Shown here: in pieces, positions 56,614 through 60,106 of the stretch | Layout: every line of letters starts with the position of its first letter | Position numbering within the stretch: the first letter of the stretch is position 1 | NCBI RefSeq assembly: GCF_018736065.1 | Contig: NZ_CP076128.1 | Location: 2,170,001 to 2,234,000, forward strand | Direction of reading: 5' to 3' | DNA: 64,000 nucleotides | Source: Flammeovirga kamogawensis | Lineage (GTDB): Bacteria > Bacteroidota > Bacteroidia > Cytophagales > Flammeovirgaceae | Program-made: the position numbers and the translations under genes | Notes under the pieces: generated by a model | Databases searched by the model: none | What the model saw: the letters and a program-made list of their open reading frames with translations, nothing else | Told to the model about the DNA's origin: nothing

Positions 56614-57369
56614 ATGCGAAAGTTTTTAGGAATTATTCCTGCTCGCTATGGATCGTCTAGGTTGGAAGGAAAACCATTGGCAGATATTTGTGGCAAGCCA
56701 ATGATTCAACACGTTTACGAACGTGCTATTCAAGCAATAGACGATGTGTATATTGCAACAGACGACATTCGAATTATAGAAGTAGTAGAAGCCTTTGGTG
56801 GAAAAGTTGTCATGACTTCTCCGACACACACAAATGGTACTACACGCTGTTTAGAGGCACTTGAGCTTATAAATAAAGAAACAAATAAAGGCTTTGATAC
56901 TGTTGTAAATATTCAAGGAGACGAACCTCTTCTTGAACCTGTTACACTCACACAGCTAATTAATAGTTTTGATGATACTACTGAGTTTGCAACATTAGTA
57001 ACCCCAGTAATTCATGCACAAGATCTAGAAAATGACAGTGAAGTTTTTGTTACTCTAGATCATAATAAAGATGCTTTATATTTTAGTAGAGCTGTGATTC
57101 CAACCGTTCGAGGAGTTGAACGCAAAGATTGGATGAAACATACTACTTTTTATAAACACCTAGGCTTATATGCCTACACTAAAAAAGCTTTATCACTGTT
57201 CGCTACTTTAGAGCCTACAACTTTAGAGAAACTAGAATCGTTAGAGCAGTTACGATGGATCGAACATGGTTATAAAATTAAGGTTGGTGTTACAGAACAT
57301 GACAGTATTCCTGTTGATACCAAAGAAGATTTGGAGCGTGTAAGAAATATTATGCAAGAGTTAGTCTAA
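56614..57369 (+). CDS. kdsB: CMP-Kdo synthetase
   Basis: The 251-residue enzyme activates Kdo with CTP, before its transfer by WaaA (gene at 35.1 kb). The nucleotide-binding motif IIPARYGSSRLEGKPL opens the protein, VNIQGDEPLLEP and YFSRAVIP follow, and HLGLYAYTKKALSLF closes the core. First gene of the operon kdsB-kdsA-TAL/CBS-kdsC-like, with a -7 box 34 bases upstream. Confidence 0.96.
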   Translation: MRKFLGIIPARYGSSRLEGKPLADICGKPMIQHVYERAIQAIDDVYIATDDIRIIEVVEAFGGKVVMTSPTHTNGTTRCLEALELINKETNKGFDTVVNIQGDEPLLEPVTLTQLINSFDDTTEFATLVTPVIHAQDLENDSEVFVTLDHNKDALYFSRAVIPTVRGVERKDWMKHTTFYKHLGLYAYTKKALSLFATLEPTTLEKLESLEQLRWIEHGYKIKVGVTEHDSIPVDTKEDLERVRNIMQELV

Positions 57370-57488
57370 TATTTACAAATAGCTAACGTTAATCATTGGT
57401 CGTTCTAGCAAAAATAAACTAAATTGCGCATCGTTGGAGAAACTGTCTCTTTTTGACATCCCCCCAATACAAAAGCAATAAAATACAG

Positions 57489-58325
57489 ATGAGTAAAAAC
57501 ATTGTAAAAGTTGGTGACATTAATTGTGGCGCTGACGAATTGTTCCTGATCTCTGGACCTTGTGTAATCGAGGACGAGAGCATCATGATGAAAACAGCTG
57601 AAAAATTGAAAGAAGTAACGGAAAGATTAAATATTCCGATGATTTATAAAGCTTCTTTTCAAAAAGATAACAGATCTTCTGTAGACTTCTATAGAGGTCC
57701 TGGTATCGATGAAGGTTTACGTATCATGCAAAAGGTAAAAGATGAATTCGGATTCTCTTTAGTTTCTGACATTCACTACCCAGATCAGATTAAACCTGCT
57801 GCTGAAGTTTTAGATATTCTTCAAATTCCAGCTTACTTATGTATGCAAACTGACTTAGTTGTTGGTTCTGCTGAAACAGGTAAAGTTGTAAATATAAAAC
57901 ACGGTCAGTTCTTAGCTCCTGAGAACATGATTAAACCAGCTCAAAAAGTTGAATCAACTGGTAACAAAAATATCATATTAACAGAAAGAGGTTACTCTTT
58001 TGGTTACAATGATTTAATTGTTGACCCTCGTTCTTTCTACGAAATGAGACAAACTGGATACCCTGTCGTATTCGACGTAACTCATTCTATCCGTAAATAC
58101 GGAATTCCTTCTGCGGATCCTACAGGTGGAGCACGTCAATACTTACCTACATTAGCTCGTGCTGGTGTGGCAGCAGGTATCGATGGTTTATTTATCGAAA
58201 CACACCCTTGCCCTTCAGAAGCACTTTGCGATGCGGCAAGTCAATTAGATGTAAATCAATTAGAAGAGTTCATGAAACCGCTAATCGAGTTACATAATAT
58301 CGAAGTTAGTTACCGTAACAAGTAA
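57489..58325 (+). CDS. kdsA: Kdo-8-phosphate synthase, metal-dependent type
   Basis: ATG 57489 gives 278 residues (MSKNIVKVGDINCG...); the upstream TTG 12 codons earlier is not needed. The enzyme condenses phosphoenolpyruvate with arabinose 5-phosphate. The cysteine in LISGPCVIED corresponds to the metal ligand of the metal-dependent class, whereas E. coli has Asn there. Also seen: YKASFQKDNRSS, LTERGYSFGYND and FIETHPCPSEALCD. Its substrate arabinose 5-phosphate should come from the next gene, which lacks the usual isomerase. Confidence 0.95.
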   Translation: MSKNIVKVGDINCGADELFLISGPCVIEDESIMMKTAEKLKEVTERLNIPMIYKASFQKDNRSSVDFYRGPGIDEGLRIMQKVKDEFGFSLVSDIHYPDQIKPAAEVLDILQIPAYLCMQTDLVVGSAETGKVVNIKHGQFLAPENMIKPAQKVESTGNKNIILTERGYSFGYNDLIVDPRSFYEMRQTGYPVVFDVTHSIRKYGIPSADPTGGARQYLPTLARAGVAAGIDGLFIETHPCPSEALCDAASQLDVNQLEEFMKPLIELHNIEVSYRNK

Positions 58326-58377: not shown

Positions 58378-59394
58378 ATGGAATTATATTTAGATTCTGC
58401 AGAGATCAATGAGATCAAAAATGGTTTTGAACAAGCACCGTTCATGACTGGTTTAACAACTACTCCAACATTCATGGCTCGTCATGGTATCACAGATATC
58501 GACGGAACTATTGTTGAGTTGTCTAAAATTGTACCTATTCTTCAAATCGAAGCTTTAGGAGACACTGCAGAAGAAATCGTTGCAGAAGCAAAACGTCAAG
58601 AAGCTTTAGGCTTAAGCCGTGAAACTACAGTTTATAAGATTCCTGTTTCTTTAGTAGGTCTTAAAGCATGTAGCATGCTTGTAAAAGAAGGTTTCAAAGT
58701 AAACGTTCACTTGGTATATACTTTACAACAAGCATATATGGCTATGCAAGCTGGAGCAACTTATGTTTGTCCTCTTGTTGGTCGTTTACAAGATCAAGGT
58801 CACGATGCTTTAGGTTTAGTAGAGCAATGTGTTGAAGCTGTAGAATACTATGGATACGATACAAAAATTATGTTCTCATCTGTACGTACAATGCAACACG
58901 TTCGTGATGCTGTAAGTATTGGTGTTCACACAATTACTGTACCTTGGAAAATCATGACTCAATTGACTGAAAACCACTTCACAAAAATTGGTACAGATCA
59001 ATTCGTTAATGATACTCGTTTAATGACAGTTAAAGTTGGTGAGGCTATCTCTACTAACAACCCTACTGTTACAGCAGATGCTACTGTTGCTGAATGTCTT
59101 GTTAACATGACAACAAACGCAACTGGTGCTACTACTGTTGTAGACGCTAACGGTGCTGCTATTGGTATCTTTACTGATGGTGATTTACGTCGTTTAGTAT
59201 CTGAAAAAGGTGGTGATGTTGTAAACACTAAAGTTGGTGATTTAGGATTAACTGCTCCTATTTCTATCGATGCTAACGAATTATTATTTGTTGCTTCGAA
59301 CTTAATCAAAGAAAAGAAAGTTGACGAACTGGTTGTTACTCAAAACGGTAAAGTAATCGGTATGTTAGACGTTCAAGATATGATGAAATTCTAA
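58378..59394 (+). CDS. Transaldolase/F6P-aldolase-like domain fused to KdsD-type CBS pair
   Basis: The 338-residue protein has two parts. Residues 1-213 form a TalC/FSA-type barrel: MELYLDSAEINEIKN (Asp6), GLTTTPT (27-30 replaces the usual TTNP), VYKIPVS with the Schiff-base lysine at 87, LQQAYMAMQAGATYVCPLVGR (117-136), and FSSVRT. Residues 216-338 are two CBS domains with IGIFTDGDLRRL (262-273), a hallmark of KdsD/KpsF/GutQ arabinose-5-phosphate isomerases. The gene lies 52 bases after kdsA and 10 before kdsC-like, exactly where a KdsD would serve. Probable role: supply or regulation of arabinose 5-phosphate by an aldolase-like reaction; this is inference. Confidence 0.8.
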   Translation: MELYLDSAEINEIKNGFEQAPFMTGLTTTPTFMARHGITDIDGTIVELSKIVPILQIEALGDTAEEIVAEAKRQEALGLSRETTVYKIPVSLVGLKACSMLVKEGFKVNVHLVYTLQQAYMAMQAGATYVCPLVGRLQDQGHDALGLVEQCVEAVEYYGYDTKIMFSSVRTMQHVRDAVSIGVHTITVPWKIMTQLTENHFTKIGTDQFVNDTRLMTVKVGEAISTNNPTVTADATVAECLVNMTTNATGATTVVDANGAAIGIFTDGDLRRLVSEKGGDVVNTKVGDLGLTAPISIDANELLFVASNLIKEKKVDELVVTQNGKVIGMLDVQDMMKF

Positions 59395-59404
59395 TTTCAC
59401 TCTA

Positions 59405-60106
59405 ATGAGAGAAGAATTATTCAAAGAAGGAGGAGGCGTGTTTGTAACACCCTCCTCTTCTCTTTTACAGCAATTACAAAACATCAAAGGTTTAATTTTT
59501 GACTGGGATGGTGTTTTTAATGGTGGTGTAAAAGGAGGACCAATGCCAAGTCCATTTAGTGAGGTTGACTCTATGGGTGTAAACATGCTTCGATTTGGTT
59601 ATTTCTTAGAAAACGGAGAAATCCCATTTACAGCAATTGTAACGGGAGAATTTAATGAAGCAGCTTTTAAATGGGCTAAAAGAGAACATTTTGATGCTGT
59701 TTTATACTTAGTAAAAGATAAAGTAAAAGTATTGCCTTTAGTTGACAATATGTCTGGTATAAAAGCCGAAGAAATACTTTTTACATTCGATGATATTTTA
59801 GATATCTCTTTAGCAAAAGAAGTAGGTGCACGTTTTATGGTAGGTAGAACTGGTAGCCCTTTATTTACAGAATATTGTAGAATGAATGGGTATGCAGATT
59901 ACATAACAGGAAACGCTGGTTCTAATAATGCAGTGAGAGAAGTGTCTGAAGTTGTGCTTTGTTTACTAGACCGCTTTGATGAAACAATCGATAAGCGTGT
60001 TGCTTTTGATGGTGCTTATGCTACTTACATCAAAAAACGTAATGAAATACCTACAAAGTATTTCAAAAACGAAGGCAGTGAATTTATCCCAAGTGATCCT
60101 TTGTAA
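59405..60106 (+). CDS. KdsC-like HAD phosphatase
   Basis: The 233-residue protein is a divergent relative of Kdo-8-phosphate phosphatase (usually about 180 residues), with an N-terminal extension of about 28 residues and a 35-residue C-terminal extension. HAD motif I is IFDWDGVFNGG, motif II IVTG, motif III a lysine in KDKVK and motif IV TFDDILDISLAKEVGA. The KdsC-like tail NAGSNNAVREVSEV closes the active site. It is 10 bases after the TAL/CBS gene. The likely reaction is Kdo-8-P to Kdo, matching the operon. Confidence 0.75.
   Translation: MREELFKEGGGVFVTPSSSLLQQLQNIKGLIFDWDGVFNGGVKGGPMPSPFSEVDSMGVNMLRFGYFLENGEIPFTAIVTGEFNEAAFKWAKREHFDAVLYLVKDKVKVLPLVDNMSGIKAEEILFTFDDILDISLAKEVGARFMVGRTGSPLFTEYCRMNGYADYITGNAGSNNAVREVSEVVLCLLDRFDETIDKRVAFDGAYATYIKKRNEIPTKYFKNEGSEFIPSDPL

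Follow-up and report, generated by a model that had tools for sequence, protein, structure and literature searches.

A transaldolase-like protein with a KdsD-type CBS pair seems to replace the usual arabinose-5-phosphate isomerase in many Bacteroidota

Arabinose 5-phosphate (A5P) is the starting sugar of a key building block of the outer membrane, and the Kdo gene cluster of Flammeovirga kamogawensis raises the question of how this sugar is supplied to the Kdo8P synthase KdsA. The known isomerases KdsD, KpsF and GutQ consist of a SIS domain and a CBS pair, whereas the gene located next to kdsA encodes a fusion protein that lacks a SIS domain and has a transaldolase-family TIM barrel as its catalytic domain. 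An E. coli K-12 strain mutated in both kdsD and gutQ cannot live unaided (PMC10448790). The original prediction was made from a window, by which we mean the whole stretch of 64,000 nucleotides that was analysed (contig NZ_CP076128.1, positions 2,170,001 to 2,234,000). It placed the genes in the order kdsB, kdsA, fusion and kdsC-like with short gaps, and proposed that the fusion has taken over from the SIS isomerase. The gene order was confirmed by the coordinates of the open reading frames, which are all on the same strand and separated by 83, 52, and 10 bases (Table 1).

Table 1. Features of the Kdo gene cluster, with positions counted from the first base of the window
Feature	Position	Strand	Basis
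kdsB, CMP-Kdo synthetase	56614-57369	+	above the NCBIfam cut-off for NF003952 and TIGR00466
kdsA, Kdo8P synthase of the fusion-accompanying type	57453-58325	+	TIGR01362, 341.5 bits (cut-off 314); KdsA tree
Fusion gene, 338 aa, transaldolase/FSA-like barrel and CBS pair	58378-59394	+	Pfam, NCBIfam, alignment
TAL/FSA-type barrel, residues 1-212	58378-59013	+	Pfam (3-202), AlphaFold model, PDB fold match
Thr29 codon	58462-58464	+	Thr in 111/111 fusion rows, Asn in 23/23 plain TalC
Lys87 codon, Schiff-base lysine position	58636-58638	+	alignment; role from family knowledge
His111 codon	58708-58710	+	His in 111/111 fusion rows, Thr in 23/23 plain TalC
Cys131 codon	58768-58770	+	Cys in 111/111 fusion rows, Ser in 23/23 plain TalC
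KdsD-type CBS pair, residues 214-338	59017-59391	+	Pfam, NCBIfam, solved relatives, CBS tree
GIFTDGDLRR motif, residues 263-272	59164-59193	+	within the CBS pair
Divergent KdsC-type HAD phosphatase	59405-60106	+	weak NCBIfam KdsC match; best solved relative 4um5

The called start of the kdsA frame is a TTG codon; the family match begins only at residue 16, and the true start is therefore probably the later ATG at position 57489. The HAD protein encoded downstream of the fusion gene matched the KdsC family of NCBIfam with an E-value of 2.1e-9 and 37 bits, far below the cut-off of 208, and gave no match in a Pfam search. Its best solved relative was a KdsC protein (6.4e-7), and from these matches we classify it as a divergent KdsC-type protein. 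It was also noted that, despite a divergence that leaves it without any Pfam match, the HAD gene is located directly 3' of kdsA even in genomes that lack the fusion (L181, L183, L185).

Both Pfam and NCBIfam confirmed that a TalC/FSA-type domain is joined to two CBS domains. Pfam assigned residues 3 to 202 to TAL_FSA (PF00923; E-value 4.7e-32) and identified two CBS stretches (E-value 5.9e-15), but found no SIS domain. In NCBIfam, TIGR00875 (FSA/TalC) matched residues 1 to 212 with 160.7 bits, which is below the equivalog cut-off of 245.95, and TIGR00393 (KpsF) matched residues 216 to 330 at model positions 153 to 267 only, corresponding to its CBS part, with 65.9 bits against a family cut-off of 203.7. 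An AlphaFold model based on 45 aligned sequences had a mean pLDDT of 89.6 and a pTM of 0.66, and its best matches in the PDB were TalC transaldolases, with TM-scores normalised by target length of up to 0.92. The smaller sequence features originally pointed out, namely Asp6, Lys87, TTTP in the place of TTNP, and GIFTDGDLRR, were all as described. Relatives with 54% to 99% identity were present in many genomes, and the fusion is thus not a chance artefact. The closest relatives listed in the named-genome collection, from which the genome's own record was possibly excluded, belonged to Flammeovirga and were 85% to 88% identical at the protein level.

Among solved structures, the best match to the CBS part was the CBS pair of the arabinose-5-phosphate isomerase 4o9k (2.4e-16). 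Three of the 5 solved matches were isomerases of this type, and the second-ranked match was to a different kind of CBS protein, 9e6q (1.6e-11). According to profile and sequence scores, the C-terminal pair is of the KdsD kind. A phylogeny was inferred from 15 fusion, 29 KpsF and 10 other CBS rows, and in the best tree, which is unrooted, the fusion CBS pairs were nested among those of KpsF. A tree in which KpsF formed a single clade without the fusion was not rejected (p-AU 0.493), and KpsF made up one side of a branch in 6% of 200 bootstrap trees. The 10 other rows were set off by a branch with 100/99 support, which marks merely one side of an unrooted tree. Judging from the profile and sequence scores, the sensor pair may have been kept from KdsD as proposed, and the nesting in the CBS tree is compatible with this.

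The fusion barrel was only 26% to 35% identical to plain TalC proteins. An alignment was made of 23 plain TalC proteins and 111 fusion rows, the latter consisting of the window protein and usable sequences from 110 of the 111 loci offered, including near-copies from the same species. Glu58, Lys87, Asn109, Arg136, Ser168, and Arg170 were present in all fusion rows and in all plain TalC proteins, as was Asp6 with the exception of one gapped TalC row (22 of 23). In contrast, 4 positions at which all 23 plain TalC proteins have Asn, Thr, Ser, and Phe were occupied by Thr29, His111, Cys131, and Leu133 in each of the 111 fusion rows. Furthermore, all fusion rows contained Gln56 where plain TalC proteins have Ser, Tyr114 where they have Phe (21 rows) or Met (2 rows), Gln138 where 21 of the 23 have Asp, and Ser167 where they have Ala. 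We take Lys87 to be the Schiff-base lysine position of transaldolases, and the mapping of the other residues to TalB and FSA numbers and roles is partly based on general knowledge of the family; FSA has Tyr at position 133. In PMC3962226, the phosphate site of the transaldolase family is described as 2 Arg and 1 Ser residues, the S176/A129 position is stated to determine whether dihydroxyacetone is favoured or disfavoured, and FSA is reported to have Ala at the position of the Ser in plain TalC. By this residue pattern, the fusion retains the phosphate-binding end of the active site and the residues for Schiff-base chemistry, and its dihydroxyacetone end is rebuilt.

If the fusion provides A5P, a SIS-type KdsD could be missing, as had been anticipated, and none was found in searches of the F. 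kamogawensis genome with the PF01380 and TIGR00393 profiles. The 4 matches to PF01380 were 2 in GlmS, 1 in GmhA and 1 in MurQ, and the sole match to TIGR00393 in the whole genome was the CBS part of the fusion (E-value 9.1e-18). Single-domain SIS isomerases occur in Bacteroides, and a hidden SIS-type KdsD, also one of this kind, was considered and rejected on the basis of these two profile searches: the short SIS protein was GmhA, and the protein with 2 SIS domains was GlmS (TIGR01135, 825 bits). We also rejected the idea that the fusion is a plain transaldolase, as the genome encodes a separate plain TalC protein (L195) with 283.8 bits on TIGR00875, above the cut-off, and the donor site is altered in every fusion row.

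To survey the distribution of the 2 proteins, we used three overlapping samples of 58 relatives, 198 genomes of the order, and 395 genomes of the phylum. For the relatives, we scored full-length fusions, KpsF proteins above the cut-off, and KdsA proteins above 200 bits, whereas in the order and phylum samples the best candidates per genome were scored, with E-values of up to 1e-55 for the fusion, 1e-25 for KpsF, and 1e-55 for KdsA. Among the 58 relatives, 26 contained the fusion and 23 contained SIS KpsF, with no overlap. All of the 47 relatives with kdsA had one of the two (26 with the fusion and 21 with KpsF), KpsF occurred without kdsA in G017 (77% complete) and G028 (88% complete), and the remaining 9 genomes contained none of the 3 genes. 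In the order sample, kdsA was identified in 159 of the 198 genomes, 65 of which contained the fusion only, 90 KpsF only, 2 both, and 2 neither (G521 and G555), while 35 genomes lacked all 3. Of the 69 fusion genomes in this sample, 67 contained kdsA, and the 2 exceptions, G477 and G501, were rated as 75% and 72% complete; the KpsF genomes without a kdsA match were G028 and G498 (93% complete). Eight families included both states (f1, f4, f5, f9, f11, f16, f19, and f20). At the level of the phylum, 289 of 395 genomes had kdsA, accompanied by KpsF in 278, the fusion in 6, both in 0, and neither in 5; another 5 genomes contained KpsF without kdsA and 101 contained none. The predicted pattern of co-occurrence with kdsA and absence of SIS KdsD was thereby recovered in all three samples, and the fusion and SIS KpsF are almost mutually exclusive among genomes with kdsA.

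The genomes that contained kdsA and neither protein were G080, G252, G323, G354, and G409 in the phylum sample, and searches with SIS and fusion proteins gave no recognised KpsF or fusion in these 5. SIS matches were located in frames of 353 and 369 residues in G252 and G323, and G323 also contained a frame of 127 residues resembling the CBS part, which could be a cut KpsF. In G521 of the order sample, kdsA was located at a contig end and neither KpsF nor the fusion was matched. G080 was rated as 100% complete, and there may therefore be a further source of A5P in genomes of this type.

The gene neighbourhood was studied in 80 loci kept from named genomes, out of at least 546 fusion relatives. 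By title, all were from Bacteroidota or Ignavibacteriota, with the exception of 1 named only "bacterium" (L091) and 1 Saccharibacteria (L097). The fusion was linked to kdsA in 52 of the 80 loci, where kdsA lies no more than 1.5 kb upstream and has the same orientation. In the other 28, kdsA was not found in the stretch around the fusion, and some loci were cut by contig ends. A HAD gene was located within 1.5 kb on the same strand in 56 loci and kdsB in 22, and no SIS kpsF gene was found in any of the 80. Two further genes recurred in 21 loci each and occurred together in 20 (such as L117, L147, and L148); for one representative of each, the best solved relatives were KdnB and KdnA. These proteins, described from Shewanella, function in the synthesis of 8-amino-Kdo, suggesting that this sugar is made in these Bacteroidota.

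A tree of the KdsA proteins, in which 59 of 85 rows were included and every second genome-contig row was omitted, was divided into two sides. The smaller one consisted of 17 rows, all from genomes with KpsF, and the larger one of 42 rows, of which 36 were from genomes with the fusion, 4 with KpsF, and 2 with neither. Only 3 changes between the fusion and KpsF states were required on this tree, so that independent swaps are few; since the sampled genomes are also related to each other, Fisher p-values for the order and phylum samples overstate the evidence. For the most part, the distribution would thus reflect kdsA types that are inherited together with their respective partners. We noted that the 2 genomes with both proteins, G466 (L177, L178) and G489 (L179, L180), contained 2 types of kdsA, each with its own presumed A5P source. 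The fusion-type kdsA was located directly before the fusion, and the second kdsA and kpsF were on opposite strands, 0.4 kb apart in G466 and 5.5 kb apart in G489, as if 2 Kdo modules coexist in one genome.

The exceptions on the KdsA tree bear more directly on the function. Four genomes (G045, G458, G538, and G509) contained a fusion-type kdsA, 69.5% to 75% identical to that in the window, together with SIS KpsF elsewhere in the genome and no match to the fusion. In G045, G458, and G538, which all belong to one genus, the HAD gene followed directly after kdsA. G509 weighs less and may be an assembly artefact, because it is divided into about 560 contigs, rated as 94% complete and 4% contaminated, and its kpsF gene is on a contig of 4.9 kb. 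Because the same type of kdsA is paired with SIS KpsF in these 4 genomes, the 2 proteins look interchangeable, and the simplest reading would be that both supply the same KdsA with the same substrate, A5P. The idea that the fusion-type KdsA forms another product was weakened by the same genomes. As for the proposed "KdsD slot" in the operon, the slot was seen in at least 1 related genome, G033, where the SIS kpsF frame opens 27 bases past the end of the kdsA match, but kdsA and kpsF were located apart in others such as G010 and G025.

A scan of viral contigs identified 5 relatives, 2 of which showed 29% identity and were FSA-like by their residues. The other 3 (L239-L241, 5001-5639; L244-L246) were barrels of 213 residues without a CBS pair, showed 65% to 67% identity, and agreed with the fusion in the Thr, His, Cys, and Leu residues. 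All 3 contigs also contained a gene of the Kdo8P synthase type. In L240 and L241, the kdsA-type gene begins inside the stop codon of the barrel gene (TAATG) with an overlap of one base, and its product matched TIGR01362 with E-values of 3.5e-69 and 3e-71 and 233 to 240 bits, below the cut-off of 314. In the third contig, a Kdo8P synthase with 353 bits, which is above that cut-off, was encoded about 7 kb upstream of the barrel. The viral origin is based on the label of the collection and on some phage-type proteins, including a virion structural match and endonucleases, and secretion-signal domains typical of Bacteroidota suggest a host from that group. A barrel without a sensor next to kdsA is the arrangement to be expected if A5P formation needs no more than the barrel. 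In other mobile elements, 76 plasmid records were matched, none over 80% of the query, and 500 phage records matched the viral barrel, none with an identity of 60% or more. The top-ranked of these was the TalC protein of Synechococcus phage S-B64, an auxiliary metabolic gene, which is phage-borne, belongs to the same family, and is 38.7% identical to the viral barrel. However, this cyanophage TalC, the one that was aligned, keeps the ordinary TTNP, Thr, and Ser, which makes it an ordinary TalC by its residues, and has no kdsA annotated within 1.5 kb. A separate observation was that Synechococcus phage S-SCSM2R (PQ898602.1, around 212611-213318) is annotated with KdsA and KdsB, the former being 39.5% identical to the viral kdsA product in L240.

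Taken together, we consider it probable that KdsA receives its A5P from the fusion and that the SIS isomerase KdsD has been displaced by it in these Bacteroidota. The replacement proposed in the original prediction, with an unrelated catalytic domain and a KdsD-type CBS pair standing in for SIS KdsD, is thus upheld in qualified form by the lack of SIS KdsD, the near-exclusivity, and the swaps. Judging from conservation, catalysis probably proceeds through a Schiff base on Lys87, the sugar phosphate would be gripped by the conserved Arg136, Ser168, and Arg170, and the altered donor site would fit an aldose bound via C1. In configuration, A5P corresponds to fructose 6-phosphate lacking C1, and the phosphate of an aldose 5-phosphate bound through a C1 imine would therefore sit as in fructose 6-phosphate. 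By the same chemical reasoning, the C1 imine of A5P would occupy the place of the C2 imine that fructose 6-phosphate forms. Cells always contain ribose 5-phosphate, which differs from A5P only at C2. Because of its constant presence, we tentatively favour it over glycolaldehyde as the preferred substrate; its inversion at C2 could proceed either through proton exchange at the imine, assisted by His111 and Glu58, or through retro-aldol cleavage followed by re-addition. That a transaldolase scaffold can reach either C2 epimer is indicated by the TalB variant F178Y, which converts glycolaldehyde and glyceraldehyde 3-phosphate (G3P) into A5P as well as ribose 5-phosphate (PMC9947464). The CBS pair, being of the KdsD kind, probably senses a product of the Kdo pathway, CMP-Kdo or another. 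With somewhat less confidence than for the substrate, we suggest that the fusion may be a ribose-5-phosphate 2-epimerase under end-product control by a KdsD-type sensor, a brake from which the viral barrel with its own kdsA would escape.

The route to A5P by way of free glycolaldehyde and G3P, joined by FSA chemistry as was first proposed, comes next in likelihood but seems rather unlikely. Free glycolaldehyde is generally a minor metabolite, no source of it was seen among the identified recurrent neighbours in the 80 loci, for which few clusters were identified, and Leu133 differs from the residue in both plain TalC and FSA. The route nevertheless has a direct precedent in FsaA, which forms only A5P and not ribose 5-phosphate from these substrates according to PMC9947464. 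The kept phosphate site and Schiff-base lysine fit a donor without a C1 hydroxyl, and the Ser that favours dihydroxyacetone has been lost (S176/A129 position in PMC3962226; Cys131 by our own mapping). Alternatively, the transaldolase scaffold could have become a genuine isomerase of ribulose 5-phosphate, performing the same net reaction as the replaced enzyme, which has a different fold, via an enediol with His111 and Glu58 as acid and base, and the fixation of a new His where plain TalC proteins have Thr would suit it. Yet Lys87 is invariant in all 111 rows, a C2 imine of ribulose 5-phosphate cannot on chemical grounds yield a free aldose, and the Schiff-base lysine would need another role, which makes this isomerase improbable.

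Marginally more doubtful is a role of the fusion in regulation or in some other step, with A5P coming from GlmS or an unrecognised enzyme. GlmS is general, which leaves the absence of KpsF just where the fusion is present unexplained, as well as the swap genomes and the viral contigs with a barrel and kdsA. The few kdsA genomes with neither KpsF nor the fusion do speak for another source, and according to PMC11301363 GFAT of several eukaryotes rescues a mutant in A5P isomerase, human GFAT isomerises ribulose 5-phosphate, and eukaryotic GFAT can make A5P, so that GlmS might in principle be a source. The release of A5P by a transaldolase from octulose 8-phosphate, a transketolase product of glucose 6-phosphate, is very unlikely. 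Such a cleavage, itself deduced by chemical reasoning, would need the dihydroxyacetone site, the residues of which differ in every fusion row (Thr29, His111, Cys131, and Leu133), even though octulose 8-phosphates and A5P both occur along the proposed L-type pentose pathway and transaldolases can use a C5 aldose phosphate as acceptor (PMC5854111).

The fusion thus has something in common with two known groups of enzymes. With KdsD, KpsF, and GutQ it shares a CBS pair of the same kind, the pathway, and an apparent exchangeability for the same kdsA type, and with TalC and FSA (TIGR00875, PF00923) it shares the fold, the Schiff-base Lys, Asp6, Glu58, Asn109, and the Arg, Ser, and Arg residues of the phosphate site. 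Unlike the latter, it has a C-terminal CBS pair, a score below the cut-off, and a location in Kdo gene clusters. LmbR of lincomycin synthesis is likewise a transaldolase that accepts ribose 5-phosphate, as described in PMC5854111, but it makes an octulose in an antibiotic pathway, unlike the role proposed here, and is likened by description rather than by sequence. Among the open-access PMC full-text matches listed, none dealt with a transaldolase-CBS fusion in the making of Kdo, which is weak evidence of absence given that subscription papers and preprints are outside this collection.

Many Bacteroidota thus seem to make A5P with a transaldolase-like enzyme that has replaced the usual isomerase, and the fusion may represent a new enzyme activity. 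Because the work of KdsD seems to be done by an unrelated fold in many lineages of this phylum, a pathway reconstruction based on KdsD would call Kdo synthesis incomplete in these bacteria and could mistake the fusion for a transaldolase. The fusion would be a clear example of one kind of sensor combined with a different catalytic domain, and the sensor-less viral version allows the role of the CBS pair to be tested directly.
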